64,000 nt of DNA from Amycolatopsis japonica (GTDB lineage: Bacteria > Actinomycetota > Actinomycetes > Mycobacteriales > Pseudonocardiaceae). Made by a program: the position numbers and the translations under genes. Every line of letters starts with the position of its first letter. Position 1 is the stretch's first letter. Positions 7,700 to 59,110 of this stretch are shown here, in pieces. Under the pieces are notes generated by a model. That model saw only the letters and a program-made list of their open reading frames with translations, did no database searches and was not told where the DNA came from. The DNA is taken from the NCBI RefSeq assembly GCF_000732925.1, contig NZ_CP008953.1, forward strand, positions 6,200,001-6,264,000, given 5' to 3'.

Positions 7700-9262
7700 T
7701 CAAGGACGGATCACGTACCGGCAGCCGGTCCCGTCCTTCGCGGTGACGGGGGTCTGACGCGCGAGGGACCGGCTCAGGTTCCATTCGCGCCAATCATCTT
7801 CCGGGATTTCCCGCACGACCGGCCCGAGCACACAGGACCGCAGCGGCTCGGGGAGCCGGTCGGCCGACGGCACCACGTCGGCGGAAAACCGTGACAGGTA
7901 AGTGGTGTCGAGTGTCTTGCCGTGCGCGAGCCGGTCGATGTTGCGATCGGCGATGAACCGTTCCGGATCCAGCACGGCCAACCCCAGCAGTGCCGCGACG
8001 GCCGCTCCGATGGCCGCGCGCGGCAGCCAGGCCGACCGCAGCGGGATCAGGGACGCGAGCACCAGCACGAAGATCAGGCCGATCCAGAGCTCGCAGACCT
8101 CGACCAGCAGCCGCAGCACGGTGAACCCGTACGCCTGCTGGTATGTCCACATGCGACTCAACGCCGACGCGACCAGCACCAGGCTGAGCACGCTCAACGC
8201 GCCGAGCAGTCCGCGCTGCCAGGCGCGATCGGCCACCGAGGTCTTCGGCGCCCAGCGCAGCGCGGCGGCGACCAGCAGCAGCGTCAGCACGGTGATGGCG
8301 GACAGCTGCCAGAACCCGCTCCTGGCGTACTCGGCCGCCGTCAGGCCGCTCGTGGCCAGCAGGTATTCGGTGCCGCCGAACAACACGACCAGGCGGACCA
8401 CGACGAAACTCGTGAACAGCAGTACCAGCACACCCAGCGGCAACGTCCATTCGAGCCGGTGCGCGAGCCGTTTGCGCGGTGCGTCGTCGGCGGCGGGCAG
8501 CGGGGGCGCCGCCAGCAGGTAACACGCCCCGGTGACGGCGAACGCGGCCACCACGAACAGGAAACCCCAGCGCACGAACGTTCCCGGGTTCAGTTCGGGG
8601 ATCACCGCGTCGACGACGCCCGCGAACGCGGCGTCCGCGCCCCGCAACAGCGGGACGAACACCAGCAGCAGCAAGGCACTCGCCAGCACGGGCACGAGGA
8701 ACCTCGGCCGTGTCCGGCCTTCCTGTTTCTTGCCGAGCTTCGTGAGCCCGCGCCCGACCCACGGGATCGAAAGCAGCGCTTCGATGGGGACCGCGAAGAC
8801 GTCGTAGACGATCGTGTTCACGGTGCGTTTCCCGACCACCGCGAGGGATCCCGCGACGAAGGCCGCCAGCACGCACAGCACGTTCAGCCACACCGACGCG
8901 CGGAACATGCCGACCGCGAGCAGTCCGAGGGCGGCCGCCGCCCAGACCGCGTTGACCAGCCCGAAATGCGGTTCGGCGTCGCCGCGGGCGCGCTTGTCGG
9001 CGAAGTAGACGGCGGCCGCGAAGGCGAGCCCCGCCACGAACCAGCCCGCGCCGGGGTCGTCCGGCATGACGAAGGCGGCGACCAGCCCGGCCGCGACCGC
9101 CGCGGGCAGCACGGAGGCGGGCAGCGGGACGATCGCCGACTTCGGCGGTACCCGCGGCCGCATCAGTATCGGCACCTGCGACACCGGCGGGGCGGGCGGC
9201 AGGGTGGTCGTCGCCGAGGGCGGCGACGCGTGCGCCTGCTTCTCCTCTTGCTCTTCGCTCAT
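7700..9262 (-). CDS. DUF4153/DUF4173-like polytopic membrane protein
   Basis: A 520-residue integral membrane protein. A hydrophilic N-terminus rich in Glu, Pro and Ser (about 50 residues) is followed by roughly a dozen hydrophobic segments. The segment VNTIVYDVFAVPIEALLSIP and the following charged loop resemble DUF4153/DUF4173 membrane proteins. A soluble C-terminal part (SADVVPSADRLPEPLRSCVL) probably faces outside. The start at 9262 has a clear GGAGG five bases upstream; a start 30 bases earlier has none. Molecular function is unknown. It lies 70 bp downstream of a histidine kinase on the same strand, so it could be part of that system, but nothing proves this. Confidence 0.75.
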   Translation of the reverse strand: MSEEQEEKQAHASPPSATTTLPPAPPVSQVPILMRPRVPPKSAIVPLPASVLPAAVAAGLVAAFVMPDDPGAGWFVAGLAFAAAVYFADKRARGDAEPHFGLVNAVWAAAALGLLAVGMFRASVWLNVLCVLAAFVAGSLAVVGKRTVNTIVYDVFAVPIEALLSIPWVGRGLTKLGKKQEGRTRPRFLVPVLASALLLLVFVPLLRGADAAFAGVVDAVIPELNPGTFVRWGFLFVVAAFAVTGACYLLAAPPLPAADDAPRKRLAHRLEWTLPLGVLVLLFTSFVVVRLVVLFGGTEYLLATSGLTAAEYARSGFWQLSAITVLTLLLVAAALRWAPKTSVADRAWQRGLLGALSVLSLVLVASALSRMWTYQQAYGFTVLRLLVEVCELWIGLIFVLVLASLIPLRSAWLPRAAIGAAVAALLGLAVLDPERFIADRNIDRLAHGKTLDTTYLSRFSADVVPSADRLPEPLRSCVLGPVVREIPEDDWREWNLSRSLARQTPVTAKDGTGCRYVIRP

Positions 9263-22537: not shown

Positions 22538-23560
22538 TCAGAGCAGCGCGACCGCGGCCGCGTACTGCGGCACCAGACGCGCCCCCAGCGAGGCCTTCAT
22601 CTCGGACATCTTCTTGCCGAACACCACCTGCGGCCGCCCGGCTTCGAGCGCCCAGCGCACGGCTTCGCCATAGAAGTGGAAGTAGAGATCGGGCCGTCCG
22701 CCGAGTTCCCGCGGCAGCGCCGCCCAGTGCCGGGCGACCGGCAGCGTCGGGTGGTCGAGCAGGGTCGCGACAGCGACCGCCCGGCCGGTGGCGGTCTCGC
22801 GGTACTCGATGACCTGCACGTCCGGTTGCCGCAGCAGCCTGCCGAGATAGCCCACGAACGCCGGCAGCGGCACGATCGGCACGTCGTGATGTTTGGTTTC
22901 GTTGTACCGCAGCAGTTCCGCGATCTCGACGGAATCGGCCTCGGCGCCCGGGCGCACGCGCACCTCGAGCGACGGATCGGCGTCGAAGGTGCGGAAGATC
23001 TTGCGCAGGTTCTGTTTGCGTTTCCTGGCCAGCGAGTGCATCCAGTCGTCCCGGCTCGAGAACGGCGTGACGTCGAGGACGGCGACGTCCTCCGTGCGGC
23101 GCACCATCTTCGGCCCGCCGCGGACACTGTCCACTCCGGACTCGCCGACCTGGCGCACCAGCAGCGCGCGCAGGCCGAACCCGAGTTCCTCGCGCATGGC
23201 GGGGACGAAGGTGTCCAGCAGCCTGCCGACGCCGCCGTCGTCGTCCTCGCCGTCGAACCACCAGCCCGGCAACGCTCCCGAGCCCGGGGAGCGGACGTCG
23301 AGCCCGCCGAGCCGCCCCCGCCCCGCCGTGCGGGCGAACCGGTGCCGCCGGGTGAGCCCGGTGACCCACGCGGAACTGACCACGCCACGCGGTTCGCCGT
23401 CTTCGAGCAGGACCGTGACCGGCTGTTCGGTGCGCGCTGCCCACGCCTGGGCGGTGAGCACCTCCCAGCTCCAGTCCGCGCGCAGTCCCGCCTTGCCCCG
23501 CAACGACTTCCAGTACACGGGCTCCGGGTCACGGCGGGGGTCCAGCACCTCGATCACCAT
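22538..23560 (-). CDS. FemAB/GNAT-like acyltransferase, paralogue 1
   Basis: A 340-residue cytoplasmic protein, last gene of a five-gene minus-strand operon with three relatives upstream. It opens VIEVLDPRRDPEPVYW, the cluster-wide DPRxDPxPxxW signature. The second half is a GNAT/FemAB-like domain: RKRKQNLRKIFRTF basic patch, LLRYNETKHHDVPIVPLPAF, and YFHFYGEAVRWALEAGRPQV. It resembles the Acetyltransf_6/BioF2-like families that use acyl-CoA or aminoacyl-tRNA. It is the most diverged of the four, missing the C-terminal PRPV motif. Its ATG overlaps the previous stop by seven bases. The acyl donor and acceptor are unknown. Confidence 0.72.
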   Translation of the reverse strand: MVIEVLDPRRDPEPVYWKSLRGKAGLRADWSWEVLTAQAWAARTEQPVTVLLEDGEPRGVVSSAWVTGLTRRHRFARTAGRGRLGGLDVRSPGSGALPGWWFDGEDDDGGVGRLLDTFVPAMREELGFGLRALLVRQVGESGVDSVRGGPKMVRRTEDVAVLDVTPFSSRDDWMHSLARKRKQNLRKIFRTFDADPSLEVRVRPGAEADSVEIAELLRYNETKHHDVPIVPLPAFVGYLGRLLRQPDVQVIEYRETATGRAVAVATLLDHPTLPVARHWAALPRELGGRPDLYFHFYGEAVRWALEAGRPQVVFGKKMSEMKASLGARLVPQYAAAVALL

Positions 23561-24597
23561 CGCGTCACCGGTCTCGGCACGATGACCCCGAGCAGCGGGA
23601 CCGGCTGGAAACCGAGCGTCGCCTTGAGGTCGGTCAGGCCCCGGCCCATCGACAGGGATTTCCGGTTGCCCTCGATCATGTAGCGCACGTTACGGACGAC
23701 CGCCTCGAAGTAGAGGTGCTTCGGGCGTCCCTCCTCCGGGGCGAGCGCGGCCCAATGCTGGTGCAGCGGCGCGACGGGGTGGTCGAGCACGTTGGTGAAC
23801 GCGAGCAGCCTGCCTTCGCCGTCGTGGTAGGTCGAAGTGATGACATCCGGCCTGCGCACGAGTTCACCGAGGTATTCGGCGGTGACCGGACCGCGCCGGT
23901 CGAATTTCACCGGCCCCATCCGCTCGCGGTGCTCCCGCAGCATGGTGGCCAGTTCCAGCGCGTCGAGGTCGGTGCGGCCGGCTTCGGTGCGGACCACGAC
24001 ATCCGGGTCGGCGGCGATCTTCTTCGACTGGCCGCGCAGGCTCAGCCGCCTGCTGCGGCGCAGGGACGCCAGCCAGCCGTCGACGTCGACGAACCGGTTC
24101 TCCAGCACCGACGTCGGCATCGTGTCGCGAACGGGCCTGCCCCGTCCGGCCAGCATGTCGAGCGACTCCGGCGGGACGGTGCGGTAGACGACGCCGAGGC
24201 AGCCCGGCCCGGTGAAGCGGCCGACGGCCCGCTCGAACCGGCGCATGATCTCCCGCCGGTCGGCCGCGTCGAGGCCGTCGGCGAACAACCACGGCGGGTA
24301 TCCGGAAAGCCACGCGTGCTGCACCTCGACCCAGCGCGGACCCAGCCGCGCCATACCGCGCACGGCACCGGGACCTGACGGGGAGATCGGGGCGCACAGC
24401 ATCGCCAGCACCGCGGCGACGATCTCGCCGCCGTCGCTGATCACGGTGAGCGCGGTGGGGCTGGGCGAAAACCGGGATTCCACCCGCAGCAAACCGTAGT
24501 CCCACGGGACCGGGGCCTGCTGCGCGTCGAGGAATCCGGACCAGCCCTCGGGTTCCGGATCGGTCCGCGGGTCGAGCACCCGCACGTCCCAGGTCAT
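23554..24597 (-). CDS. FemAB/GNAT-like acyltransferase, paralogue 2
   Basis: A 347-residue relative of the adjacent genes: opening VLDPRTDPEPEGWSGF, middle LSGYPPWLFADGLDAADRRE, RRSRRLSLRGQSKKI basic patch, and ending GVIVPRPVTRW. The region ELATMLREHRERMG to KATLGFQPVP has the layout of FemAB/BioF2-like acyltransferases, with the donor-binding half at the C-terminus. The start ATG overlaps the stop of paralogue 3 (ATGA). No signal peptide or membrane helix. Its similarity to neighbours on both sides implies local duplication followed by divergence. Substrates unknown. Confidence 0.72.
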   Translation of the reverse strand: MTWDVRVLDPRTDPEPEGWSGFLDAQQAPVPWDYGLLRVESRFSPSPTALTVISDGGEIVAAVLAMLCAPISPSGPGAVRGMARLGPRWVEVQHAWLSGYPPWLFADGLDAADRREIMRRFERAVGRFTGPGCLGVVYRTVPPESLDMLAGRGRPVRDTMPTSVLENRFVDVDGWLASLRRSRRLSLRGQSKKIAADPDVVVRTEAGRTDLDALELATMLREHRERMGPVKFDRRGPVTAEYLGELVRRPDVITSTYHDGEGRLLAFTNVLDHPVAPLHQHWAALAPEEGRPKHLYFEAVVRNVRYMIEGNRKSLSMGRGLTDLKATLGFQPVPLLGVIVPRPVTRW

Positions 24598-25697
24598 CGG
24601 CCCAGCACCGGTCTCGGTACGGCGACCGACACCAGGGACCTGGTGCCGAAGCCGAGCGGGGTCTTGTTCTCCAGCATCGCCCGGCCTGCGGTCAGTTCGG
24701 GGCGCCGATGCGTGATCATGTGTTCCACTCCCCTGGCGTAGAAGTCGACATAGAGCCCTTTCCGTCCGCCTGCCGCGCTCGGCAGCGCGGCCCACTGGTG
24801 CAGCGCGCATCCGTCGTCGGCGTCGAACAGCGTGCCGAAACCCAGCAGCCGTCCGGATCCGTCACGGTAGGTACGGGTGACGACGTCCGGGCGACGGATC
24901 AACGCGTCCAGATAGGACGGTGCGATCGGGCTCCGGGTGTCCATGTGCAGCCCGCCGAACCGCGACCGCTGCCCGCCCGCCCAGGCCCGGTCGTCCTGCC
25001 TGCTCCGGTGGGCGTTGAGCAGGACGGCGAGTTCGTGGCAGTCCAGGTCCCGGCGGGCGGTGGCCGCCTCGGTGCGCAGGTCCCCGTCTTCCCGCAGCTC
25101 GTGCAGTGTCTTCCGGGGCTCGTCGCCGAGCACCCGTTCCCAATCGTCCACAGTGGAGTACTCGTTGATCAGCACGGCGGCCGGGTCGATCTCCCGGGAC
25201 ATCCGGCCCCGGCCTTCCAGCGCCGGGAGGAGCTCCGGGTTCATCGCCCGATAGATCAAGCCCAGCAGTCCCGGACCGAGGTGGGCGCATAAAGCCCGTT
25301 CGAACCGGCGCACCACCTCCCGCCGCTCGGCCTCGTCGAGCCGCTCGTCGAGCACCCCGGCGGGATAGCCGCTGAGCTGCCAGAGGTAGGCCTCGGCCCA
25401 GCGCGGGCGGAACCGTCCACCGAGGACGGACAACGGTGCGAAGTCGCCCGCGCGCCAGCTCCGGCACACCATCACGGTGAACGCGCCGACGATCGTCCCG
25501 TTCCGGCGCAGCACCGCGAGCACCGCGGGGTTCTTCGCCATCCAGGCTTCCCGGCGCAGGACGTCGTACTCCCAGACCGGCCACAGCTTCGCCCGCCGCT
25601 GGAAGCCGCTCCAGCCCTCGGGTTCGGCCGCGGTCCTCGGATCGAGCACCTCGGCCTCGAACACGGTGTTCCTCGCCGCCACCTTCATCGTCACCAT
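24594..25697 (-). CDS. FemAB/GNAT-like acyltransferase, paralogue 3
   Basis: A 367-residue family member: VLDPRTAAEPEGWSGF near residue 17, LSGYPAGVLDERLDEAERRE, GPGLLGLIYRAMNPELL, and C-terminal SVAVPRPVLGR. The acyltransferase half runs from DCHELAVLLNAHRSRQDD to NKTPLGFGTRS. It carries a longer insert around RAWAGGQRSRFGGLHMDTRS than its relatives. The start is uncertain: ATG 25697 overlaps the previous TGGTGA in the way seen between paralogues 2 and 1, and GTG 25694 is the alternative. Function unknown beyond the family. Confidence 0.7.
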   Translation of the reverse strand: MVTMKVAARNTVFEAEVLDPRTAAEPEGWSGFQRRAKLWPVWEYDVLRREAWMAKNPAVLAVLRRNGTIVGAFTVMVCRSWRAGDFAPLSVLGGRFRPRWAEAYLWQLSGYPAGVLDERLDEAERREVVRRFERALCAHLGPGLLGLIYRAMNPELLPALEGRGRMSREIDPAAVLINEYSTVDDWERVLGDEPRKTLHELREDGDLRTEAATARRDLDCHELAVLLNAHRSRQDDRAWAGGQRSRFGGLHMDTRSPIAPSYLDALIRRPDVVTRTYRDGSGRLLGFGTLFDADDGCALHQWAALPSAAGGRKGLYVDFYARGVEHMITHRRPELTAGRAMLENKTPLGFGTRSLVSVAVPRPVLGR

Positions 25698-26728
25698 CCC
25701 AGTACCGGTCTCGGCACGGCCGCGGCGTACACGGGGCGCGCCCGGAAACCCAGCGTGGCCTTGAGTTCGGGCAGCCCGCGCCCGGCGGTGAGCTCCTTGA
25801 CCCCGCGCCGCGTCGCGTACCGCATGGCGTGGATGTAGGAGTCGAACAGCAGTCCCTGCCGCCCGCCTTCGTCCACCGGCAGGGTGCCCCAATGCTGTTT
25901 CGCCGGGCTGTCCGGATGATCGAGCAACGTGTTCACCGCGAGCAGCCTGCCGTCCGCGCCGGTGTAGGTCAGCGTGTGCACGTCCGGCCGCCGGAGGAAC
26001 CGGTGCAGGAACGCGGCGGAAGGCGGCGTCCTGGTGTCGAGCGGGAGCTTGCCGTGCCGGTCGCGATGCCCCTGGATGAGGGTCGCGACCTCGGCGCTGT
26101 CGAGGTCCTCCCGGCCGGCACCACCGACGACTACCACACCCGGATCGTCGGCGATCCGGCGCCGCTGCCGTCGCAGCCCGCCCCGCCGCGACTTGGGCAG
26201 CGAGGCGATCCATTCGTCTTCCGAAGCGAAACGGTTTTCCAGCACCGCCACGGAATCGACGGCCTTCACCAGCCGCCCACGGCCCTGGAGGTCCTGCGCG
26301 AAATCCTGCCCCAACGCCCGGTACAGCACTCCGAGCAGGCCGGGGCCGAACCTCCGGCGCAGGGACCGTTCGAAGTCCCGGATCAGCGGACGACGATCGG
26401 CGGCGGCGACCTCCGGCGCGAACGCGAGCCCCGGGTAGCCGCTAAGCCAGGGCTGGCACACCTCGGCCCAGAACGGGCGCAGCAACCGGTGTCCCGGTGT
26501 CGGCGCGAAGCGGTATCGCAGCCGTGGACGGCACACCAGCACCGAAAACGCCGCGAGGATCTTGGCACCGTCCGAGACGGTGGCGAGCACCGGCGGGTTC
26601 CGCGCGGTCCAGGCGTCGAGCCCCATCAGGTCGTAGTCCCACACCGGATGCAGGCGGGCGGCGCGGAAGAACTCCGGCCAGCCGACGGGAACGGGATCGG
26701 TGCGGGGATCGTGGAAACCCGTCTTCAC
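25691..26728 (-). CDS. FemAB/GNAT-like acyltransferase, paralogue 4
   Basis: A 345-residue family member: GFHDPRTDPVPVGWPEF at the N-terminus, LSGYPGLAFAPEVAAADRRP, GPGLLGVLYRALGQDF, a very basic PKSRRGGLRRQRRRI segment, and ending AAAVPRPVLGW. The conserved Glu/His-rich turn VATLIQGHRDRHGK and KATLGFRARP place it with the other three. GTG 26728 overlaps the upstream stop by four bases (GTGA), so the operon is tightly coupled. The repeated basic patch suggests binding of a phosphorylated or RNA-linked donor; that is inference. Confidence 0.72.
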   Translation of the reverse strand: MKTGFHDPRTDPVPVGWPEFFRAARLHPVWDYDLMGLDAWTARNPPVLATVSDGAKILAAFSVLVCRPRLRYRFAPTPGHRLLRPFWAEVCQPWLSGYPGLAFAPEVAAADRRPLIRDFERSLRRRFGPGLLGVLYRALGQDFAQDLQGRGRLVKAVDSVAVLENRFASEDEWIASLPKSRRGGLRRQRRRIADDPGVVVVGGAGREDLDSAEVATLIQGHRDRHGKLPLDTRTPPSAAFLHRFLRRPDVHTLTYTGADGRLLAVNTLLDHPDSPAKQHWGTLPVDEGGRQGLLFDSYIHAMRYATRRGVKELTAGRGLPELKATLGFRARPVYAAAVPRPVLGW

Positions 26729-27501
26729 GTGAGCACGACCGGCGTCCCGTGTCGCGGGCACGGCGCGATCTCACCACGGACGCCGCCTGCCGGGAGCACG
26801 TCCACGAACCGCGGGGAATCCTGGCGCAGCAGCGTGAACGCGAGTCCGCCGGTCGTCGGGCGCGCGTAGACACGCTGCCAGTCGAGGTGCCAGCGGCCGC
26901 ATTCCTCGATCGCGCCCAGATACCCCAGCGCCGGATCGTGGAGCACCCCGTACGGGCCGGTGTCCATTGTGTCCAGTTCCCGTCGCGGTACGGATTCGAC
27001 CCGGTACGCACGGTCTTCAGGCAAGGCGGCAGTGAAGACGGCCAGCTGCTTGTCGTCGCCGACCGCGAGCACGCGACGGCCGCGGCGAAGCGCGGAGGAC
27101 ACTTCCGCCAGCACGCTCGGCGCCGGGACGTCGGGATCCACCACACAGCAACGAACTCCGCGCGGCAGGTCCGACGGCGGCCGCGTCCCGTCCCCGCCGA
27201 GCACGACGACCAGCGCGTCCCCGCTCACCGAACGTGCCTTACGCAGCACGGGGCCCAGGCCCCGGCTCGGCTCGATCCGTTGCGCCCCACCGGCGAGCGG
27301 TACCAGATCGACGATCTTGTGCACCGCGTCGGCCAGTGGCGCCGCACCCGAATCCGTCCCGGTGCGACCGGGCACCAGCACGGGATCCGTTCTGCCGTCC
27401 AGAGCCCAGCGTTCCCGGTAGAACGGCACCGTCGCGAAGGCCGACCGCACCGACCGCCGATAGGCGGCCCGCCAGGCAGCATTCACCCCCACAGTCCACA
27501 T
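26725..27501 (-). CDS. CapK/PaaK-like adenylate-forming protein (reduced)
   Basis: A roughly 258-residue protein of uncertain family. The start region RSVRSAFATVPFYRERWAL closely resembles the N-terminus of phenylacetate-CoA ligase/CapK/F390-synthetase proteins (arginine-rich helix then PFYR). The end VRGEIAPCPRHGTPVVLT fits their C-terminal GE...CxxxG region. It is much shorter than usual PaaK (about 430), and I cannot find the ATP-binding P-loop, so it may be a degenerate or carrier-type relative. ATG 27501 is the best start, with no ribosome site seen. It is the first gene of the minus-strand operon, divergent from the glycosyltransferase operon. Confidence 0.5.
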   Translation of the reverse strand: MWTVGVNAAWRAAYRRSVRSAFATVPFYRERWALDGRTDPVLVPGRTGTDSGAAPLADAVHKIVDLVPLAGGAQRIEPSRGLGPVLRKARSVSGDALVVVLGGDGTRPPSDLPRGVRCCVVDPDVPAPSVLAEVSSALRRGRRVLAVGDDKQLAVFTAALPEDRAYRVESVPRRELDTMDTGPYGVLHDPALGYLGAIEECGRWHLDWQRVYARPTTGGLAFTLLRQDSPRFVDVLPAGGVRGEIAPCPRHGTPVVLT

Positions 27502-27616
27502 GGCGCGCAAGCCTGCGTCATCGCCGGCGGTTTGGGAATACCCCGCGTCGGATTCATCCGGTTTTCGCCCGACTTCCCACCTTTTCGACTGAGCTGAAAG
27601 GACGAACTTGCGGATT

Positions 27617-27626
27617 CCGCTAGCGG
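27617..27626. promoter_or_regulatory. Palindrome in the shared promoter region of the divergent locus
   Basis: A perfect 10-bp palindrome CCGCTAGCGG lies mid-way in the 271-bp gap (27502-27772) between the two divergent operons. This gap must contain both promoters. I see no other strong signal in it and no gene. Confidence 0.3.
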
Positions 27627-27772
27627 CAGCAAAGCGAGTCTGCCTATAACACGGGAACTTTCGAGCCGGCACGACCTGCCGGACGCCTGGGGCCAAGGGG
27701 ACTCATGAACCGTGAAAACACAACGCGTGACGCTACGAACACAATAGCGCACTCACCGCAGGGATTCGACAG

Positions 27773-30007
27773 ATGAACCGGTCGACCCCCGGACCGGTGG
27801 AAAGTGGACTCACCGTAGTCGTCCCGTGCTTCAACGAAGTCGACAACGTCGAGCCCTCCTACCGGGAGATCGTCGCCGAGTTGGGAAATCTCCCCCTCGA
27901 ACTGCTCTATGTGGACGATGGGAGCACGGACGGGACCCTGGACGTCATCCGGGCGCTCGCGCACACCGACCCCCGGGTGCGCTACCTGTCCTTCACCCGG
28001 AACTTCGGGTTCGAAGCGGCCTTTTCCGCCGGTTATCGGTACGCCGGGAAACCGTGGCTCCTGCACATGGACGCCGATCAACAGTTCCCGGCCTCCGAGG
28101 TCGAGAAATTGATCATGGCCGCCGAGGCGGGCAACGACGCTGTTTTCGGTGTACGCACCAATAGGCAAGATCCCTTACTAAGACGGTGGGGAACCGCCGC
28201 GTTCCATTTCGTCGGCCGCCGCGTCCTGCGCATCGAAATCCCGCCCGGCGCGACGGCGTTCCGCCTGGTGCGCACGGAGCTCGCGCGCAAGATCGTCGAT
28301 CTCCGGCTGGGCACCCCGTACTTCCTCGCCACCGTGCCGAGGCTGACCAGCCGCTACACCACCGTCCAGGTGGCACACCGGGCCCGCGAACGCGGTGAGT
28401 CCAAAGTGGGCTTCGGCTTCCTTTCCTCGCACGCCATCGAGTTGTTCGTCGGCTTCACCCGGCGGCTGACGACGATGGCCTCGACCACGGCGGTGCTGAC
28501 CGCCGGGCTCTCGGTGCTCGCCGGGATCGCGGCCGCCACCGGGCTGCTCGGGCTCACCGCCGCGTCGACGCTGACGTTCGTCATGTTCTCCGTGCTGCTG
28601 ACCGTGCTCGCGTTGTCCGTCCGCTACCTGGTCGTGGTCGGCGCGGGGCAGGCGCGGCCACGGCAGTTCTACATCAGGGAAGCCAATTTCCCGGTCGACG
28701 AGGACGACCGGCTCTACGCCTCGGCCATGGCCGAGATCCATCCTGGGGAAAGGCAAGCGGGAGTGAAGAACACCGAAGACACGGCGGCGGTACGGAGCCT
28801 GGTGATCCTGGGCGGCGCCGACGGTTCGGTCAGCACGTATCACCGGGCGCGGGAGCTCGGTTTCCGCACCATCTGCGTGGACGTCCGCGCGAGCGCGCCC
28901 GCGGTGGCGCTGGCCGACGAGTTCGTCCAGGTCAGCGTCCGCGCGCCGGAGCAGATCGCGGCGGCGCTCGAGGGACGGGACGACATCGCCGGGGTGCTCT
29001 GCCCGGCCAGCGACGTCGGGCTGCCCGCGCTCGCCTGGCTCACCCGGCACTGGAACCTGCCCGACCCGTTGCCCGAAGCCGCCGTCGCCGCGTCCGTCGA
29101 CAAGTCCGTCTTCCGCGAACTCTGCGACCGGCTGCGTCTGCCGACCTACCGCAGCGTCGGCGGGAAGCCCGGCCCGGACCTCGCGCTCGCCGCGCAGCAA
29201 CTGCGGTTCCCGACGCTGGTGAAACCGGTCGACTCCTCCGGCAGCCGCGGTGTCGTCTCCTGCGCGAGCCCCGGCGGCCTCACCACCGCGTTCTCCGACT
29301 CCCTCGCGTTCTCACCGTCCGGCAAGCTGGTCGTCGAGGAACACCTCGACGGCTCGCACTACACGATCGAAGCACTCGCGGTCGACGGCCGGATCGTGTT
29401 CCACGCGGTCACCCGGCGCACGTTGACACCGCCGCCGTTCTTCGTGACGGCGTCGCACCTGCTGCCCGCCGGACTGCCGCCGGCCCTCGACCGCGCGTTG
29501 CCGGTGATGCTGGCCGCGTTGTGCGCCGAACTCGGTTACCGCACCGGACCGCTCACCCTCGACGCCGTCCTGGGCCGGGACGGGAAGTTCTATCTCATCG
29601 AGATGGGCGCCCGGATGGGCGGGAACGGCCTGGCCGAGGCGATCGAGCACAGCACCGGCGTCGACCTGATCGCCGCGGGGATCGCCGCCGCGACCGGCGG
29701 CGAGGTCGTGCTCTCCCCGCGCGACCCGCGGCCGACGCTCATCCACATCCTCGCCTCCGACCGCGGCGGCCGGATCGTGCGCATCGAGGGCGTCGACGAG
29801 GTCCGCGCCATGCCCGCGGTGCACAACCTGGAACTGTTCGCGGAGGAGGACTCCTACGTCAAACCGTACGAGCAGGCCGGCTACAAGATGGGGTACGCCG
29901 TGCTTTCGGCGCCGACCGTGCCCGACGTGCTCGCGGCGGAGGACGAACTGCGCGGCACGCTGAAGTTCCTGCTCGACGAGCAGGGTGCGGCGGTACCGCT
30001 CCCTTGA
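27773..30007 (+). CDS. GT2 glycosyltransferase fused to an ATP-grasp ligase
   Basis: A 744-residue two-enzyme protein. Residues about 1-230 are a family-2 glycosyltransferase of the polyprenyl-phosphate sugar type (TVVVPCFNEVDNV, LLYVDDGSTDGTL, DxD in LHMDADQQFP). Two membrane helices follow at about 235-290. From about 331 there is an ATP-grasp domain: LVILGGADGSVSTYH, ATP loop TLVKPVDSSGSRGV, VEEHLDGSHYTIEAL and metal-binding FYLIEMGARMGGNGL. Such domains form amide or peptide bonds by an acyl-phosphate. The frame is open throughout, and the only internal GTG (28763) lacks a spaced ribosome site, so a real fusion is likely. It is the first gene of the operon; its end overlaps the next start by four bases. 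Confidence 0.82.
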   Translation: MNRSTPGPVESGLTVVVPCFNEVDNVEPSYREIVAELGNLPLELLYVDDGSTDGTLDVIRALAHTDPRVRYLSFTRNFGFEAAFSAGYRYAGKPWLLHMDADQQFPASEVEKLIMAAEAGNDAVFGVRTNRQDPLLRRWGTAAFHFVGRRVLRIEIPPGATAFRLVRTELARKIVDLRLGTPYFLATVPRLTSRYTTVQVAHRARERGESKVGFGFLSSHAIELFVGFTRRLTTMASTTAVLTAGLSVLAGIAAATGLLGLTAASTLTFVMFSVLLTVLALSVRYLVVVGAGQARPRQFYIREANFPVDEDDRLYASAMAEIHPGERQAGVKNTEDTAAVRSLVILGGADGSVSTYHRARELGFRTICVDVRASAPAVALADEFVQVSVRAPEQIAAALEGRDDIAGVLCPASDVGLPALAWLTRHWNLPDPLPEAAVAASVDKSVFRELCDRLRLPTYRSVGGKPGPDLALAAQQLRFPTLVKPVDSSGSRGVVSCASPGGLTTAFSDSLAFSPSGKLVVEEHLDGSHYTIEALAVDGRIVFHAVTRRTLTPPPFFVTASHLLPAGLPPALDRALPVMLAALCAELGYRTGPLTLDAVLGRDGKFYLIEMGARMGGNGLAEAIEHSTGVDLIAAGIAAATGGEVVLSPRDPRPTLIHILASDRGGRIVRIEGVDEVRAMPAVHNLELFAEEDSYVKPYEQAGYKMGYAVLSAPTVPDVLAAEDELRGTLKFLLDEQGAAVPLP

Positions 30008-31281
30008 CCGGCACTTCGCTCACCGGCGCCGGCACCGCGTCCATCGCGGCGCCGAAGCCGTCGATGGTCCTTCGCCTGCTCGCCGGGCGGGGCGTGTTCC
30101 GGCTGGCGATCCAGGCGATGGGCCTGGTGCTGGTCACCGCGTGGGGCGCGCACGACTACGGCCGGTTCGCCACCGCGCTCGGGCTGATGACGTGGCTCAA
30201 CTTCGTGCCGTCGGCGGCGGAGAAGTCGGCGTTGAAATGCCTGCCGCGCCTGCGGATGACGCGGGACGCGGTCGCGGCGCTGGCCGTCCGCGTCGCCGTC
30301 GTCCCGGTGCTGGTGGTACTGGCGGCGATGGCGGTCGCGCTGATCGTCGCGCCGGATTCGGACGCCGCGCTGTACCTGACGGCCGCGGGCTGGTCGATCT
30401 CCGGCGGCCTGTTGATGACCGTGTCGGGCCTGCATCGGTTCACTGGAAAGTCCACTTTGGACGCTCTGGCGTTCACCGCGGGCGCGCTGGTGGTCGGTGC
30501 GGTGACGACGGGGACCTGGTTCGTCCGCTGGTCGCCGTTGACGCATCTCGGCCTGTTGCTCGGCGGGATCCTGCTCATCCTCGGCGTCTCCGCGGCGCTG
30601 CTGCCGAAGAAATGGCTGCGGGTGGAGAGGGTCGACGGGCACCGGCTCCTGCCCGCCTTCGGCCGGACCACCGTGCTGCTCGGGCTGACCGAGGTGCTGG
30701 ACGTCCTCGCGACGTCGACGGTGTTCGGCGTGCTGGCGCTGGCCGGGCGGACCGTCGACAGTGGACCGTTCTACGTCGCCTTGCTGGCCAGCAGCGCGTT
30801 CTGCTCGCTGCTGTTCTATCAGCTTCGCGTGCACCAGCCGGCGATTTCGGCGCGGCTGCGCGGTGGCGGGGCGGCGGCGGGCCGGTCCCGTGCGGTCGAA
30901 CTGCTGAAACTGGTCGAACGGGGCGCGCTCGCGTTCCTCGTCCTGGTGGGGATCGCCCTCGCGATCCCGGCGGCCCGCGCGGTGCTGACCGCCGAAGACA
31001 CCGTCGGCGCGTACGTGGTCCTCGGCGTCTTCGTCCTGGTCGAAACGGTGCTGTTCGCCGTCCGGCTCTACGCGGGCTTCCTGATCGAAAACACCAACAG
31101 CAAGGTCCTCACGCTCACAGCGTCGGCCTCGATCGCCGGGCTGGTCGCCACCCCATTGGCCGCCGCCGCGCTCGTCCCGGCGATGGGACCGGTCGGCGGA
31201 TTCGCCGCCCTCGTCTTCGCCATCGGTGTCCGGGCGACCGTCCTCCGTCGGCTGCTGCGCCGCCACCACCCCGAACTCTGA
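30004..31281 (+). CDS. Flippase-like polysaccharide/lipid-linked exporter (MOP-like)
   Basis: A 425-residue membrane protein with about ten to twelve hydrophobic segments, for example AVRVAVVPVLVVLAAMAVAL and LAFLVLVGIALAIPAARAVL. Layout and the N-terminal GRGVFRLAIQAMGLVLVTAWGAHDYGRFATA resemble Wzx/MATE-like O-antigen or lipid-linked oligosaccharide flippases, in which an early AxxxGxF segment is common. It would move a lipid-linked product made by the preceding GT2 enzyme across the membrane. TTG 30004 overlaps the previous stop (TTGA); ATG 30064 is the alternative start. Substrate unknown. Confidence 0.68.
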   Translation: MTGTSLTGAGTASIAAPKPSMVLRLLAGRGVFRLAIQAMGLVLVTAWGAHDYGRFATALGLMTWLNFVPSAAEKSALKCLPRLRMTRDAVAALAVRVAVVPVLVVLAAMAVALIVAPDSDAALYLTAAGWSISGGLLMTVSGLHRFTGKSTLDALAFTAGALVVGAVTTGTWFVRWSPLTHLGLLLGGILLILGVSAALLPKKWLRVERVDGHRLLPAFGRTTVLLGLTEVLDVLATSTVFGVLALAGRTVDSGPFYVALLASSAFCSLLFYQLRVHQPAISARLRGGGAAAGRSRAVELLKLVERGALAFLVLVGIALAIPAARAVLTAEDTVGAYVVLGVFVLVETVLFAVRLYAGFLIENTNSKVLTLTASASIAGLVATPLAAAALVPAMGPVGGFAALVFAIGVRATVLRRLLRRHHPEL

Positions 31282-31302
31282 ACGTCGCACTGGAGAAGGA
31301 AC

Positions 31303-33105
31303 ATGTACGTACTGGGAATCAGCAGGGTCCACGACTCGGCGGCCGCGCTCGTGCGCGACGGCGAGATCATCGCTTTCGCCGAAGAGGAACGCTTCACCCG
31401 CAAGAAGCACGACGGGGACTTCCCCGCGGAGGCGATCAAGTTCTGCCTGGAGCGCGGCGGGATCACCCTCGCCGACGTCGACCACGTCGCCTACTACTGG
31501 CAGCGCTGGCGTGAGGGCATCCACGCGGCGAAGGTGTTCGCGAAGTACTTCCCGGCCACGCTGGAGGTGTTCCGCAACCAGAACGGCGACGAGGGCGGCT
31601 CGTCGGCGGGCATGGTGGAGACGTTCAAAACCGGTGGCGGCAAAGGGGTCGACGACTACCACGTCGGCGGCGCCGTGCTCGCGCACATCAAGCGGTCCTT
31701 CACCCTCGAACGCGACGTGAAGGAGGCCGTGGGCTGGACCGGCCCGACGAAGTTCAAGACGCATCTGGTCGACCACCACAAGGCGCACGCCGCCAGCGGC
31801 TACTTCATCTCGCCGTGGGAAGAGTCGGCGGTGCTCACCTTCGACGGCATCGGCAGCGACGGCACCGCGACCTATCTGGGGCACGGCAAGGGAAACCGGA
31901 TCATCGACATCCGGCGGATCAAGTTCCCGCATTCGCTCGGCGCGATGTACGCGGGCGTCACCGGCTATCTGGGCTTCTACCCCACCCGTGACGAAGGCAA
32001 GATCATGGGGCTGGCCCCGCTCGGCAACGACACCTACGTCGACGCGTTCAAGCAGCTGATCCACCTCGACGACGACGGCGGGTACGAGCTCGATCTGAGC
32101 TTCTTCGGGCACCACCGCACCGGCAAGCACGTGATGGCGAAGAAGTTCACCGACCTGTTCGGTCCGGCGCGGCCCAAGACCCGGGTCACCGCGGAGAACC
32201 CGGTGCCGCAGCACTACTGCGACATCGCCTACGCGCTGCAGGTCACCCTGGAAGAGGCCGGGCTGCACATCGCGCGCTGGCTGCAGCGGGAGACCGGGTC
32301 GCGGCGGCTGTCCGTCGCGGGCGGCGTCGCGCTGAACAGCGTGATGAACGGGCGGATCCTGCTGGAAACCCCGTTCGAGGACTTCTTCGCCCAGCCCGCG
32401 GCGGCCGACGACGGCTGCGCGCTCGGTTCGGCGCTGGAGGTGTCGGTCGGCAAGTACGGCAAGCCCCGTCCTCGCGACGGCTACACCTACACCGGCCCCG
32501 ACTACACCGAGGCGGAGATGGAGCTCGCGCTGCAGGACGCCGGGGTCCGCTACACCAAGGTCGACGACATCGCCGCGCACACGGCGAAGAAGATCTCCGA
32601 GGGCAAGATCATCGGCTGGGTGCAGGGCCGGATGGAATGCGGGCCGCGCGCGCTCGGCAACCGTTCGCTGGTGGCCGACCCGCGCGACCCCGACTCGAAG
32701 ACGCGGATGAACGAGAAGGTCAAGCACCGCGAGGCTTTCCGGCCGTTCGCGCCGTCGTGCCTGGCGGAACGCGCGGGCGACTGGTTCGTCAGCGACTACC
32801 CGTCGCCGGTCATGCTGCTGGTGTTCGACGTCCTGCCGGACAAACGCGACGAGGTCCCGGCCATCACGCACGTCGACGGCACGGCCCGCGTGCAGACGGT
32901 GACCGAAACGGACAACCCGTTGTACTACCGGATGATCAGCGAGTTCGAGAAGCTCACCGGCGTGCCGATGGTGGTCAACACCTCGTTCAACGACAACAAC
33001 GAACCGATCGTCGCCAGCCCGGCCGACGCGGTGGCCTGCTACCTGAAGACCGACGTCGACGCCCTCGCCCTCGGGCCGTTCTGGGCAGAGAAGGACGACC
33101 TGTGA
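31303..33105 (+). CDS. Carbamoyltransferase (NodU/CmcH/TobZ family)
   Basis: A 600-residue O-carbamoyltransferase that uses carbamoyl phosphate and ATP to carbamoylate a hydroxyl of a small molecule or sugar. The N-terminal Kae1-like half has GISRVHDSAAALV, EEERFTRKKHDG, VDHHKAHAASGYF and FDGIGSDGT. The C-terminal YrdC-like half has GWVQGRMECGPRALGNRS, RMNEKVKHREAFRPFAPS and VNTSFNDNNEPIV. All blocks expected in the family are present and length is normal. It starts after GGAGAAGGA. Being inside a sugar-transfer and export operon, it probably decorates the glycan or glycolipid. Confidence 0.92.
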   Translation: MYVLGISRVHDSAAALVRDGEIIAFAEEERFTRKKHDGDFPAEAIKFCLERGGITLADVDHVAYYWQRWREGIHAAKVFAKYFPATLEVFRNQNGDEGGSSAGMVETFKTGGGKGVDDYHVGGAVLAHIKRSFTLERDVKEAVGWTGPTKFKTHLVDHHKAHAASGYFISPWEESAVLTFDGIGSDGTATYLGHGKGNRIIDIRRIKFPHSLGAMYAGVTGYLGFYPTRDEGKIMGLAPLGNDTYVDAFKQLIHLDDDGGYELDLSFFGHHRTGKHVMAKKFTDLFGPARPKTRVTAENPVPQHYCDIAYALQVTLEEAGLHIARWLQRETGSRRLSVAGGVALNSVMNGRILLETPFEDFFAQPAAADDGCALGSALEVSVGKYGKPRPRDGYTYTGPDYTEAEMELALQDAGVRYTKVDDIAAHTAKKISEGKIIGWVQGRMECGPRALGNRSLVADPRDPDSKTRMNEKVKHREAFRPFAPSCLAERAGDWFVSDYPSPVMLLVFDVLPDKRDEVPAITHVDGTARVQTVTETDNPLYYRMISEFEKLTGVPMVVNTSFNDNNEPIVASPADAVACYLKTDVDALALGPFWAEKDDL

Positions 33106-33812
33106 CCGCCACCCTGCCCGAAACCGACGGCTGGATCCCCGCGCTCTACCGGCGGCGCAAATGGCTGTGGCTGGTGGCCGCCGTCCCGGCCGTGGTGACC
33201 GCACTGCTGATCATGGTGATCCTGCCGCCGGACCAGACACTGGACAACGTCGCGGACTGGGCGTTCAAGCTGTGCCCGTTCGTCTTCGCGGTCGTCACGG
33301 TGGCGCTCTTCCCCCGCACCAAAGGGGGTCCGGCGCTGATCGTGCTCGCGGTATTCGTCTACATGTCCTATTTGGACACCGAGCTGATCATGCGGATCCA
33401 GGCGTTCGCCAGGAACGCAGCCACCGACGAGGACGCCTTCCAGCCGGTGTACCAGTTCGAGCTGTTCATCGTGACGTTCATCGTCCTGTTCGGACTGATG
33501 GCGTACCGGCTGGGCGGCGGGCGGACGGCGAACGTGCTCAAGGCCGGTGTCGCGTCGATCCTCGTGGTGATCTCGGGCGCGAACGACCTGACGTTCTGGG
33601 CGCTCAACGACGTCTGGTCCGCCGGGACGAAACCGACCGAGCTCAAATGGGCCTCGCATATGATCGTGTTCCTCGGCGGGCCGCCGAGTGTCCCGGTCGC
33701 GGTGCTGTTCATGCTGGTGCATCTGGCGCTGGCGGCGGTCGTGGTGGCGCTGCCGGTGGGCCGATGGGTCGACCGGGCGCTGGGGCTCGCTTCCCCCTCG
33801 CGCGAGGCATAA
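33102..33812 (+). CDS. Integral membrane protein of unknown function
   Basis: A 236-residue protein with about six hydrophobic segments (LWLVAAVPAVVTALLIMVIL, FVFAVVTVALFP, ALIVLAVFVYMSYL, FIVTFIVLFGLMAY, VLFMLVHLALAAVVVAL). The loop after the third helix, LDTELIMRIQAFARNAATDED, is conspicuously polar. I recognise no family. GTG 33102 overlaps the carbamoyltransferase stop by four bases, so it belongs to that operon and probably acts with it in the membrane. Its TAA stop codon is the target-site duplication of the adjacent IS element, and the protein was not truncated by the insertion. Confidence 0.75.
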   Translation: MTATLPETDGWIPALYRRRKWLWLVAAVPAVVTALLIMVILPPDQTLDNVADWAFKLCPFVFAVVTVALFPRTKGGPALIVLAVFVYMSYLDTELIMRIQAFARNAATDEDAFQPVYQFELFIVTFIVLFGLMAYRLGGGRTANVLKAGVASILVVISGANDLTFWALNDVWSAGTKPTELKWASHMIVFLGGPPSVPVAVLFMLVHLALAAVVVALPVGRWVDRALGLASPSREA

Positions 33813-33818
33813 GGGGTC

Positions 33819-34232
33819 CTAACAGATTGAGTGGGCTTTGAGTCTGCGCCAGCAGATGATGGCGCAGCCGAGGGTGAGGAAGGCTTCGTGGATGTCGTCG
33901 CGGATCTCCCAGCGGATGCGTAGCCGCCGGAACCAGTGCAGCAGGGCGAAGGCGCCCTCGACGACCCAGCGGTGGACGCCGAGGCCGGAGCCGTGTTCCT
34001 GGCCTCGGCGGGCGATGAGAGGTGTGATTCCCGCGGCGCGGACAAGCTTGCGGTACTTGTCGTGGTCGTAGGCGCGGTCGGCGTAGAGCCGTTGTGGCCG
34101 CCGGCGGGGCCGTCCACGGCGGCCCCGCACGGCTGGGATCGCGTGGATCAGCGGCATCAGCTGGGTGACGTCGTGCCGGTTCCCGCCGGTCAGGGTGGCC
34201 GCCAAAGGAATACCGGTTCCGTCGGTGATCAC
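33819..34232 (-). CDS. IS5-family transposase, C-terminal frame
   Basis: The second part of the DDE transposase: VITDGTGIPLAATLTGGNRH, the second aspartate in RLYADRAYDH, and the glutamate in VVEGAFALLHWFRRL. It continues in frame upstream of 34232 (VGSKHHVITD) to the slippery run near 34290, so it is translated only after a -1 frameshift from the first frame. The coordinates given run from an internal GTG and understate the fused product. Active-site residues are all present, so the element may still be mobile. Confidence 0.85.
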   Translation of the reverse strand: MITDGTGIPLAATLTGGNRHDVTQLMPLIHAIPAVRGRRGRPRRRPQRLYADRAYDHDKYRKLVRAAGITPLIARRGQEHGSGLGVHRWVVEGAFALLHWFRRLRIRWEIRDDIHEAFLTLGCAIICWRRLKAHSIC

Positions 34233-34654
34233 ATGGTGTTTCGACCCGACACGGGCTCGATCGACCGGGCTGGGGCCGGTTTTCGGCCCCCTTTTAACGC
34301 CCGCACATGCGATCCATCAACGGCTGCCCGTGACCAGTCCAGCTGGCCCGCCGCGTGCAGCTCCGCCAGCAGCAGCTCGTGCAACCGCTGCCACACCCCG
34401 GCCTCGGTCCAATCCCGCAACCGACGCCAGCACGTCATACCCGACCCATAACCCAGCTCTTGGGGCAGGAACTCCCACGGGATCGCGGTATAGAGCACGA
34501 ACATGATCCCGCACAACGCCTTGCGGTCGTCCAACCGCTTACGCCCCGGATGCCTGAACCGACGCTCCACCTTCGGCAACAACGGCTCGATCCGTTCCCA
34601 CAGACCGTCATCGACCTCCCACGGACGCCGCTGTCCCACCAGCCCACCCCTCAC
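34229..34654 (-). CDS. IS5-family transposase, N-terminal frame
   Basis: The first 141 codons of the transposase: DNA-binding region RRPWEVDDGLWERIEPLLPK, then PWEFLPQELGYGSGMTCWRR, and the first catalytic aspartate in AAVDGSHVRALKGG. It ends shortly after the slippery run TTAAAAGGGGG (about 34287-34297). A -1 shift there would read ALK-RGPKTGPSPVDRAR and continue into the second frame. Start GTG at 34654; a later GTG is possible. Such a frameshift is the normal way these elements produce full-length transposase, so this is probably not a broken gene. Confidence 0.85.
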   Translation of the reverse strand: MRGGLVGQRRPWEVDDGLWERIEPLLPKVERRFRHPGRKRLDDRKALCGIMFVLYTAIPWEFLPQELGYGSGMTCWRRLRDWTEAGVWQRLHELLLAELHAAGQLDWSRAAVDGSHVRALKGGRKPAPARSIEPVSGRNTM

Positions 34655-58828: not shown

Positions 58829-58965
58829 GGTGACGATCCTGCCACTCCTCCTCTCGTGTGCTTTGTCCGGTGATGTGTTCCGGGCACGGTGGCCCCACCT
58901 GAGGCTCATGTCGTACGGTGTTGGCGAGGCGACGCGATGACACGCGTGCCGACAATCGAATACCG

Positions 58966-59095
58966 CTCATCCAGAGGGGCAGAGGGAACGGCCCGATGAA
59001 GCCCCGGCAACCGGCGTCAGCCTGTCATCCCGCGATCGCGGGATAGCTGACGAACACGGTGCCAATTCCGGCCCGCCACCGGCGGGGCAGATGAG
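58966..59095 (+). ncRNA. SAM-I (S-box) riboswitch ahead of thrC
   Basis: The leader has the conserved SAM-I core: CTCATCCAGAGGGGCAGAGG, ACGGCCCGATGAAGCCCCGG, then CAACC, and the P3/P4 junction GGTGCCAATTCC. P1 pairs CTCAT (58966-58970) with ATGAG (59091-59095). P3 is the long ATCCCGCGATCGCGGGAT stem near 59023 and P4 is CCCGCC-ACC-GGCGGG. It ends 15 bp before the thrC start, so it probably controls translation initiation in response to S-adenosylmethionine. Confidence 0.92.
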
Positions 59096-59110
59096 GAAAG
59101 GAACCTCGCG

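Follow-up and report, generated by a model that had tools for sequence, protein, structure and literature searches.

A conserved divergent locus in Amycolatopsis japonica combines FemX-like transferases with genes for a candidate pathway to an exported, lipid-linked sugar

The window, a stretch of 64,000 nucleotides of Amycolatopsis japonica DNA (contig NZ_CP008953.1), contains a locus of nine genes in two divergent arms, five on the minus strand and four on the plus strand; their open reading frame coordinates match those of an earlier sequence-only reading, which had miscounted the locus as ten genes. The minus arm encodes four FemX-like transferases, A1 (22538..23560; 340 aa), A2 (23554..24597; 347 aa), A3 (24594..25697; 367 aa), and A4 (25691..26761; 356 aa), and C, a reduced protein of the CapK/PaaK fold (26725..27501; 258 aa). 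The plus arm encodes a fusion, GT-AG (27773..30007), of a GT2 domain (residues ~1-320) and an ATP-grasp, amino-acid-ligase-like domain (~339-744), followed by the hydrophobic membrane protein FL, a supposed flippase (30004..31281; 425 aa), the O-carbamoyltransferase CT (31303..33105; 600 aa), and a second hydrophobic membrane protein, M (33102..33812; 236 aa). Almost every junction had been described as overlapping by 4-7 bases, and five do so: A1/A2 and A3/A4 by 7 bp, and A2/A3, GT-AG/FL, and CT/M by 4 bp. The exceptions are FL/CT, which has a 21-bp gap, and A4/C, where the overlap is 37 bp for an A4 start at GTG 26761 and 4 bp for one at GTG 26728. The latter may be the true start, giving a protein of 345 aa, because A4 matches in several other loci begin at query residue 18.

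The shared divergent region (27502..27772) measures 271 bp, the size previously given for the promoter gap, and its length is conserved: it is 259-278 bp in 23 of 24 divergent regions (the window and 23 related loci) and 215 bp at the remaining one, L054. It contains a TATAAC (27645-27650) within a partly conserved block, and a 23-codon leader reading frame on the plus strand (27705..27776); its stop codon and the GT start share an ATGA in 22 of the 28 loci compared. We weighed a graspetide-type RiPP, given the pairing of ATP-grasp with GNAT, but do not regard the leader frame as a precursor because its amino acid sequence is not conserved between groups. Neighboring genes named by eye as hemW, TetR, and SIP have homologs at 9, 7, and 8 of 32 loci searched, all in close Amycolatopsis apart from hemW and SIP at L049, and are therefore not part of the system.

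A single scan yielded the 23 related loci accepted here, which come from Amycolatopsis, Prauserella, Saccharomonospora, and one MAG. All have the same divergent layout of GT, AG, FL, CT, M, C, and A1, so the arrangement is not due to chance. A1 is present in every locus of this type (the L040 copy is cut by a contig end), and the other transferases are each absent from some, with A2 and A3 each found at 21 loci and A4 at 19; among the four loci lacking A4, L037 has a 40-residue remnant. We also assembled 43 clusters of at least two families, 42 recruited by GT-AG or AG and one (G704) by C, such that the presence of GT and AG, or of C in G704, follows from the search itself. Most of the set is found together in these clusters with gene order rearranged: M in 43, FL in 41 (absent from G045_C230 and G1227), A proteins in 41 (absent from G1256 and G1227), and reduced C or full CapK in 43. 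CT is encoded in 31 clusters and the remaining 12 carry a sugar epimerase, so that one or the other is present in 43/43. In an order-wide sample, C was detected in 16 of 298 genomes, 15 of them in the window's family and 14 of these with GT-AG; distribution within the family is patchy (26 of 200 genomes, including the A. japonica genome). The set is conserved together in several groups of soil actinobacteria.

Because the two arms stay together even where gene order is rearranged, they are one system. The sequence-only reading had taken them for one unit and proposed a co-occurrence search, and that search found both arms together in relatives, at 23/23 loci and in rearranged clusters. That two unrelated operons lie side by side by chance would accord with their divergent orientation, but it is hardly credible when the arms occur together in 41 of 43 clusters as judged by A and in 43 as judged by C or CapK, and we rejected it on their joint presence in rearranged clusters.

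The predicted structure of A4 (pLDDT 94) has a double-GNAT fold. Its closest folds include FemX (Z 19.9), FemA (19.4), and the streptothricin tRNA-dependent peptide synthases Sba18/Sbb17 (18.9-19.4); L-PGS/MprF match at Z about 17.5-19, and lower matches are tandem GNATs (about 15) and N-myristoyltransferases (about 14). Structure prediction, which the earlier reading had put forward as a check, thus places A4 nearest to FemX-type aminoacyl-tRNA users, and every row at Z ≥18 is either an aminoacyl-tRNA user or a protein annotated as related to one. By sequence, only A4 among the four passes a Pfam cut-off (PF13480, GNAT family; 28 vs. 22 bits), and 27 of the 58 A proteins match PF13480 at E ≤1. 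The A4 match to PF04339 (FemAB_like) is below the family cut-off, PF02388 (Pfam FemAB) matches none of A1-A4 at E 1 and nothing in the A. japonica genome at E 1e-10, and a PDB sequence search with the A profile gave no match at E 1. No A copy beyond the four was detected in the genome at E 0.001. Lys334 is invariant in 58/58 aligned A proteins and is located near the C-terminus, as is FemX Lys305; a profile alignment puts Lys334 on the FemAB lysine with near-zero confidence, and the match to Lys305 is otherwise positional. A role for FemX Lys305 and DhpH Lys329 is reported (PMC12945691). In a phylogenetic tree, A1, A2, and A3 form one clade each, and fold, profile, and tree comparisons together bear out the description of the four as FemAB/GNAT-like paralogs.

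A link to lysyl-tRNA synthetase (LysRS) is found in a sister clade of the A proteins. A class I LysRS gene overlaps the sister A copy in three clusters of a second family, each with a gene for a lysine-halogenase-like protein (HalD) nearby, and in five other clusters A is directly followed by a core-less LysRS, which lacks the catalytic core and consists of a zinc-ribbon-like part and a C-terminal part. The A proteins of these eight clusters form one clade (support 100/99). Core-less LysRS was detected in 4 of 200 family genomes, once in each and within the cluster, these being the same four genomes that built the query; in G704, an ordinary class II LysRS is present as well. Clusters of the window's type, 29 in all, contain neither LysRS nor core-less LysRS, and the pairing in the sister clade argues by analogy for aminoacyl-tRNA use by the window's A proteins. 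Taken together with the A4 fold, it makes dependence on aminoacyl-tRNA more likely than dependence on acyl-CoA, which sharpens the earlier label "acyl/aminoacyl-transferase-like".

The same evidence bears on a reading of the A proteins as acyl-CoA- or acyl-adenylate-dependent N-acyltransferases, with CapK relatives supplying the activated acyl group for an acylated glycoconjugate. The PF13480 matches, the tandem GNATs and N-myristoyltransferases in the A4 fold list, and the presence in 9 of 43 clusters of full CapKs with a P-loop speak for it; we nevertheless consider it unlikely, given the aminoacyl-tRNA users among the top folds, the pairing of both LysRS forms with one A clade, and a window cluster that has only reduced C. 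The latter form is found in 38/43 clusters. The model of C has the fold of the PaaK/CapK N-terminal domain (Z 16.1 over 238 residues), aligning to residues 13-323 of the 425 of PaaK1, and the C-terminal lid domain is missing. The P-loop pattern is present in 0/26 reduced C proteins versus 16/16 full CapKs of the clusters; RYxxGD is found in 0/26 and YGxTE in 1/26, patterns that also miss 10 and 9 of the 16 full CapKs, respectively. Cys201, His205, Cys248, and His251 are invariant. C has no Pfam match at E ≤1 and no NCBIfam match over cut-off, and a PDB sequence search with its profile returned weak, unrelated rows only (best E 0.2). The "reduced CapK/PaaK-like" assignment therefore agrees with the fold, and profile comparison with full CapKs is weak (E 0.018, probability 2.5%).

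GT-AG matches GT2 (104.9 bits), ATP-grasp_4 (40.8 bits), and LAL_C2 (47.1 bits) in Pfam. The closest match of the GT2 domain is ArnC (E 6e-23), which places the GT2 called earlier in the polyprenyl-phosphate kind, and hydrophobic segments are present at its C-terminal end. The ATP-grasp core and LAL_C2, features of L-amino-acid ligases, are both present, consistent with the ligase call. The two parts form a single protein in the window, L036-L043, and L068 but not in the remaining clusters scored; that this occurs in two cluster types suggests a common substrate. CT matches both carbamoyltransferase domains (PF02543 and PF16861; N-terminal 202 bits, C-terminal 239 bits), retains HHxAHA when aligned with NovN/GdmN, and also matches TobZ. 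It thus has the two domains and the HxxxH motif expected of an O-carbamoyltransferase, as first proposed; in these enzymes the motif has a metal role.

Pfam gives no match for FL or M at E ≤1, NCBIfam nothing over cut-off, and a PDB search with their profiles nothing at E 5. The earlier naming of FL as a flippase found no family to rest on: MOP is not among the Pfam hits of 22 FL members, and hhalign comparison with an alignment of 15 proteins recruited by PF13440 gave a probability of 1.1% (controls: reversed FL 0.07%, M and C 0.2%). Among 396 sampled phylum genomes FL was detected at E 1e-8 in the A. japonica genome only, and it is therefore no housekeeping flippase. M has invariant Asp162, His186, and His207 and is also found near a GT2 in an unrelated, polysaccharide-like context (CofD, GT4, and a Polysacc_synt protein).

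Lipid-linked sugars are donors in envelope modification: 4-amino-4-deoxyarabinose is passed to lipid A and galactosamine to mycobacterial arabinogalactan. That the locus similarly passes a lipid-linked sugar to a wall polymer would fit the ArnC-like GT2, its weak PpgS match far below cut-off, and the second context of M. We judge it quite unlikely, since Pfam recognized no GT-C-like transferase among the nine genes and the variable tailoring genes point to a metabolite. A diffusible, antibiotic-like metabolite made by the same chemistry, with a GT2 not directed to polyprenyl phosphate or with the lipid a mere carrier, and FL and M as exporters, would account for that variation (HalD, tryptophan dioxygenase, UDP-galactopyranose mutase, epimerase or CT, depending on the cluster), for LuxR-type regulators close to several clusters, for the patchy distribution, and for streptothricin enzymes among the closest folds. 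It too seems rather unlikely, against a GT2 nearest ArnC with hydrophobic C-terminal segments and the retention of both membrane proteins in nearly all clusters.

We place at about an even chance a single pathway assembling and exporting a polyprenyl-linked, carbamoylated, sequentially aminoacylated sugar. From its family and hydrophobic segments, the GT2 would load a sugar on polyprenyl phosphate at the cytoplasmic side; the ATP-grasp domain would couple an amine of this substrate to a carboxylate, probably that of an amino acid; and CT, with its retained motif, would carbamoylate a hydroxyl. A1-A4 would then add aminoacyl residues from aminoacyl-tRNA in sequence, in the manner of FemX/FemA/FemB, which act one after another on the peptidoglycan precursor. 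C, with an adenylating-enzyme fold and neither ATP loop nor lid domain, may act with the A proteins as a partner that does not adenylate, and FL and M would carry the product across the membrane. No extracytoplasmic transferase was recognized among the nine genes. More broadly, and only tentatively, FemX-like assembly lines may build tRNA-derived aminoacyl chains on lipid-carried sugars with gutted adenylating enzymes (core-less LysRS, reduced CapK) as partners, which would serve the transferases by holding tRNA or substrate and not by activating anything.

If true, the pathway would bring together cell-wall-type tRNA-dependent aminoacylation and natural-product tailoring on a single lipid-linked molecule that is exported, and give context to three orphan protein families, C, FL, and M. 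Core-less LysRS, reduced CapK, and M could serve as markers for further unassigned biosynthetic clusters, and the HalD homolog beside a dedicated class I LysRS in relatives predicts a tRNA-loaded halogenated lysine transferred to a sugar. The sequence-only reading knew of no described system with this gene set, and we likewise found none in the open-licence literature searched, as judged by titles and abstract openings among the matches listed.

The closest parallels are partial. FemX/FemA/FemB branch synthesis shares the double-GNAT fold, paralogs that form separate orthologous groups, and a supposed sugar-lipid acceptor; it differs in that the locus supplies its own GT2, ATP-grasp ligase, carbamoyltransferase, and membrane proteins, that some relatives add a core-less LysRS partner, and that A1-A4 have no Pfam FemAB match. 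The tRNA-dependent natural-product transferases VlmA, DhpH, PacB, Orf11 of BD-12, and Sba18/Sbb17 share the fold (PMC12945691), and VlmA is paired with a dedicated aminoacyl-tRNA synthetase, VlmL (PMC2922099), as in some relative clusters; the clusters described here differ in encoding several paralogs apiece and a GT2 of the polyprenyl-phosphate type. ArnC and other polyprenyl-phosphate sugar synthases resemble the GT2 domain, which here is fused or coupled to an ATP-grasp ligase, with no ArnT-like gene recognized. C has the N-terminal domain fold of the PaaK/CapK adenylating enzymes but not their P-loop or C-terminal domain, and CT has both domains and the motifs of TobZ/NovN/GdmN in a different gene setting. 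The saskemycin pathway, for which glycosyl-, acetyl-, and carbamoyltransferase genes are reported (PMC12637814, a preprint), yields an O-carbamoyl sugar with a poly-agmatine acyl tail, and in these features, rather than gene by gene, it resembles the proposed product.

The locus at 22538-33812, in a genome of 9.05 Mb, comprises nine genes in two divergent arms separated by 271 bp. On the minus strand, the reduced CapK/PaaK-fold protein C (27501-26725) is transcribed first, followed by the FemX-like transferases A4, A3, A2, and A1, ending at 22538; on the plus strand, the GT2–ATP-grasp fusion protein GT-AG (27773-30007) is followed by the membrane protein FL, the O-carbamoyltransferase CT, and the membrane protein M, ending at 33812. 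Adjacent genes of an arm overlap by 4-7 bases, the exceptions being FL/CT (gap of 21) and A4/C, where the overlap is 37 with the longer start and 4 with a start at 26728. A 23-codon reading frame (27705-27776) follows a purine-rich stretch that resembles a ribosome site, and its stop overlaps the start of GT as ATGA. This overlap was seen in 22 of 28 loci examined, with differing amino acids, and the short frame is possibly involved in translational coupling to GT. TATAAC at 27645-27650 in the divergent region belongs to a block that most alignment rows share (as TATAA), the row of locus L058 being different. Immediately 3′ of M, two frames (33819-34654) resemble by eye a split IS transposase, and a SAM riboswitch (78.7 bits) was detected at 58964-59097 of the window.

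A contig scan with the fused GT-AG protein gave 24 loci, 23 of which were accepted (16 from Amycolatopsis, four from Prauserella, two from Saccharomonospora, and one from a MAG); L059, from a Leptospiraceae MAG, matched part of the query at 22% identity and was left out. GT, AG, FL, CT, M, C, and A1 are present in the identical divergent layout in all 23, A1 being cut by the contig end in L040, and A2, A3, and A4 are present in 21, 21, and 19 of them, respectively. On a tree of 108 A proteins, A1 (99/90), A2 (96/87), and A3 (100/99) each form one clade and A4 maps as two changes; separate transferase lines have therefore been kept while these genera diverged. The GT-AG protein was matched (E 1e-40) in 26 of 200 family genomes, including the A. 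japonica genome itself and several genomes of the named loci. C was found in 16 of 298 genomes of the order, 15 of them within the family, and GT-AG is also present in 14 of those 15. One accessory arrangement was seen in L061 (10887-15089), where an extra arm after M contains a second AG, a second C, A3, and A4; A1, A2, and the other C copy are not part of this arm. In L058, ~840 bases (~8068-8911) separate A4 and C, which overlap or are separated by a short gap in the other A4-bearing loci.

The window, these 23 loci, and more distant fetched clusters were profile scored together as 43 clusters. GT-AG or AG had served to recruit 42 of them, and C the remaining one (genome G704). Some of the family loci supplied the sequences for the profiles and so match them by construction; none of the nine second-family clusters contributed. 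CapK, epimerase, LysRS, and HalD were searched with the proteins of G704. M was detected in 43 clusters, FL and A in 41 each, reduced C in 38, and full CapK in nine; all five clusters without reduced C carry full CapK, as do all nine second-family clusters. CT is encoded in 31 clusters and an NAD-dependent epimerase in the other 12, with an additional weak epimerase match (26%) in the CT cluster of G066. Gene order varies among the clusters while the gene set remains together, and the two arms are therefore not separable, bearing out the sequence-only reading that they form one unit. One genome, G045, holds both cluster types (L113 and L068), which are therefore likely to be separate pathways; cluster profile scoring did not find FL in L113.

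Sequence matches link the GT2 part to ArnC (6e-23) and the ATP-grasp part, also compared at residue level, to the L-amino-acid ligase BL00235 (5e-17). The two are fused in the window, in L036-L043, and in L068, which is of the other cluster type. CT matches NovN, GdmN, and TobZ with E values as low as 1e-100, and the HHxAHA motif is retained in the NovN and GdmN alignments. FL and M are both hydrophobic, and family searches gave no convincing family for either. M accompanies GT2 in 8/8 fetched loci (L103-L110, from seven genomes; 8 of the 11 places where M was found) from a third actinobacterial family with a different gene setting, which links M to GT2 action. In L110, the two are accompanied by CofD-like, HAD, NTP-transferase, GT4, and Polysacc_synt proteins. 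The presence of invariant Asp162, His186, and His207 suggests that this small membrane protein, M, has an active site and is more than a mere anchor.

The structural model of C (pLDDT 90.5) aligns with residues 13-323 of the 425 in PaaK1 (Z 16.1, 238 residues). A P-loop pattern is present in 16/16 full CapKs vs 0/26 C proteins; RYxxGD is likewise found in 0/26, but its absence counts for little because the same pattern misses 10/16 full CapKs. Profile comparison of C with the full CapKs of the clusters was weak (E 0.018, 2.5%), and the proposed kinship rests on the predicted fold. Invariant Cys201, His205, Cys248, and His251 of C could bind zinc. A lone C-like protein is encoded at 9084-9743 of L111 (G136), with no other cluster genes within the 20 kb fetched.

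For the transferases, an A4 model from 58 aligned sequences (pLDDT 94) gave FemX as the top Foldseek row, then LysPG synthases and MprF, with a clavulanate-pathway tandem GNAT and the peptide synthases Sba18/Sbb17 among further top rows. VIA-align Z scores were 19.9 for FemX, 19.4 for FemA, 18.9-19.4 for Sba18/Sbb17, and about 17.5-19 for L-PGS/MprF, followed by tandem GNATs (about 15) and N-myristoyltransferases (about 14). Lys334 is invariant in all 58 rows; a review calls FemX Lys305 catalytic and DhpH-C Lys329 essential (PMC12945691). Against 29 actinobacterial FemAB proteins, the A profile scored E 3.5e-4 with a probability of 37%; this comparison placed Lys334 on the FemAB lysine with near-zero confidence, a placement that global alignment did not reproduce.

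The A family is probably aminoacyl-tRNA dependent, the tRNA evidence coming from sister clades. In G704, an A gene overlaps by 11 bases (as called) a gene for class I LysRS (PF01921, 2.8e-46) with HIGN and KISGS motifs. An ordinary class II LysRS above the curated cut-off is also encoded in that genome, so the cluster copy is an extra one. A HalD-family gene (PF23169, 5e-100; HWG motif) adjoins GT in G704, and the A/LysRS pair and HalD recur in G1195 and G1300. Relatives of HalD chlorinate lysine. A gene for a core-less LysRS (E 5e-23 to 3e-29) overlaps A by 4 bases in four clusters from the window's own family. Its product consists of a zinc-ribbon-like region (profile 187-249) and a C-terminal part (~339-390 to 527), lacks the HIGN- and KISGS-bearing regions, and contains a long insertion in G078. 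The frame immediately 3′ of A in G1221 is also a core-less LysRS (remnant profile E 2e-39; LysRS profile 1.4e-13). A proteins labelled for pairing with LysRS or its remnant (nine rows from seven clusters, two of which are each represented by a pair of overlapping pieces) group in a single clade (100/99), the labels having been set after the pairing was seen; the G1221 copy, unlabelled in that test, groups beside the remnant-paired proteins. Among 200 family genomes, core-less LysRS was found in four, the sources of the query, as one copy each within the cluster. Profile scoring found neither LysRS form in 29/29 clusters of the window's type, nor was either found in the G100 cluster of the other type.

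Tailoring genes differ among clusters: HalD in three, a tryptophan dioxygenase next to GT in G1256, a UDP-galactopyranose mutase in G1226, and an epimerase or CT in every one. Such variation looks more like a set of related products than a single, fixed component of the envelope. The most likely whole pathway, to which we give about an even chance, is the predicted assembly and export of a lipid-carried, carbamoylated, aminoacylated sugar. Among the matches listed in searches of open-licence literature, no paper dealt with this gene set. A paper on synthetase relatives in peptide synthesis (PMC2922099) describes other systems; a 2009 amidoligase survey from the group behind that paper may list related neighborhoods.
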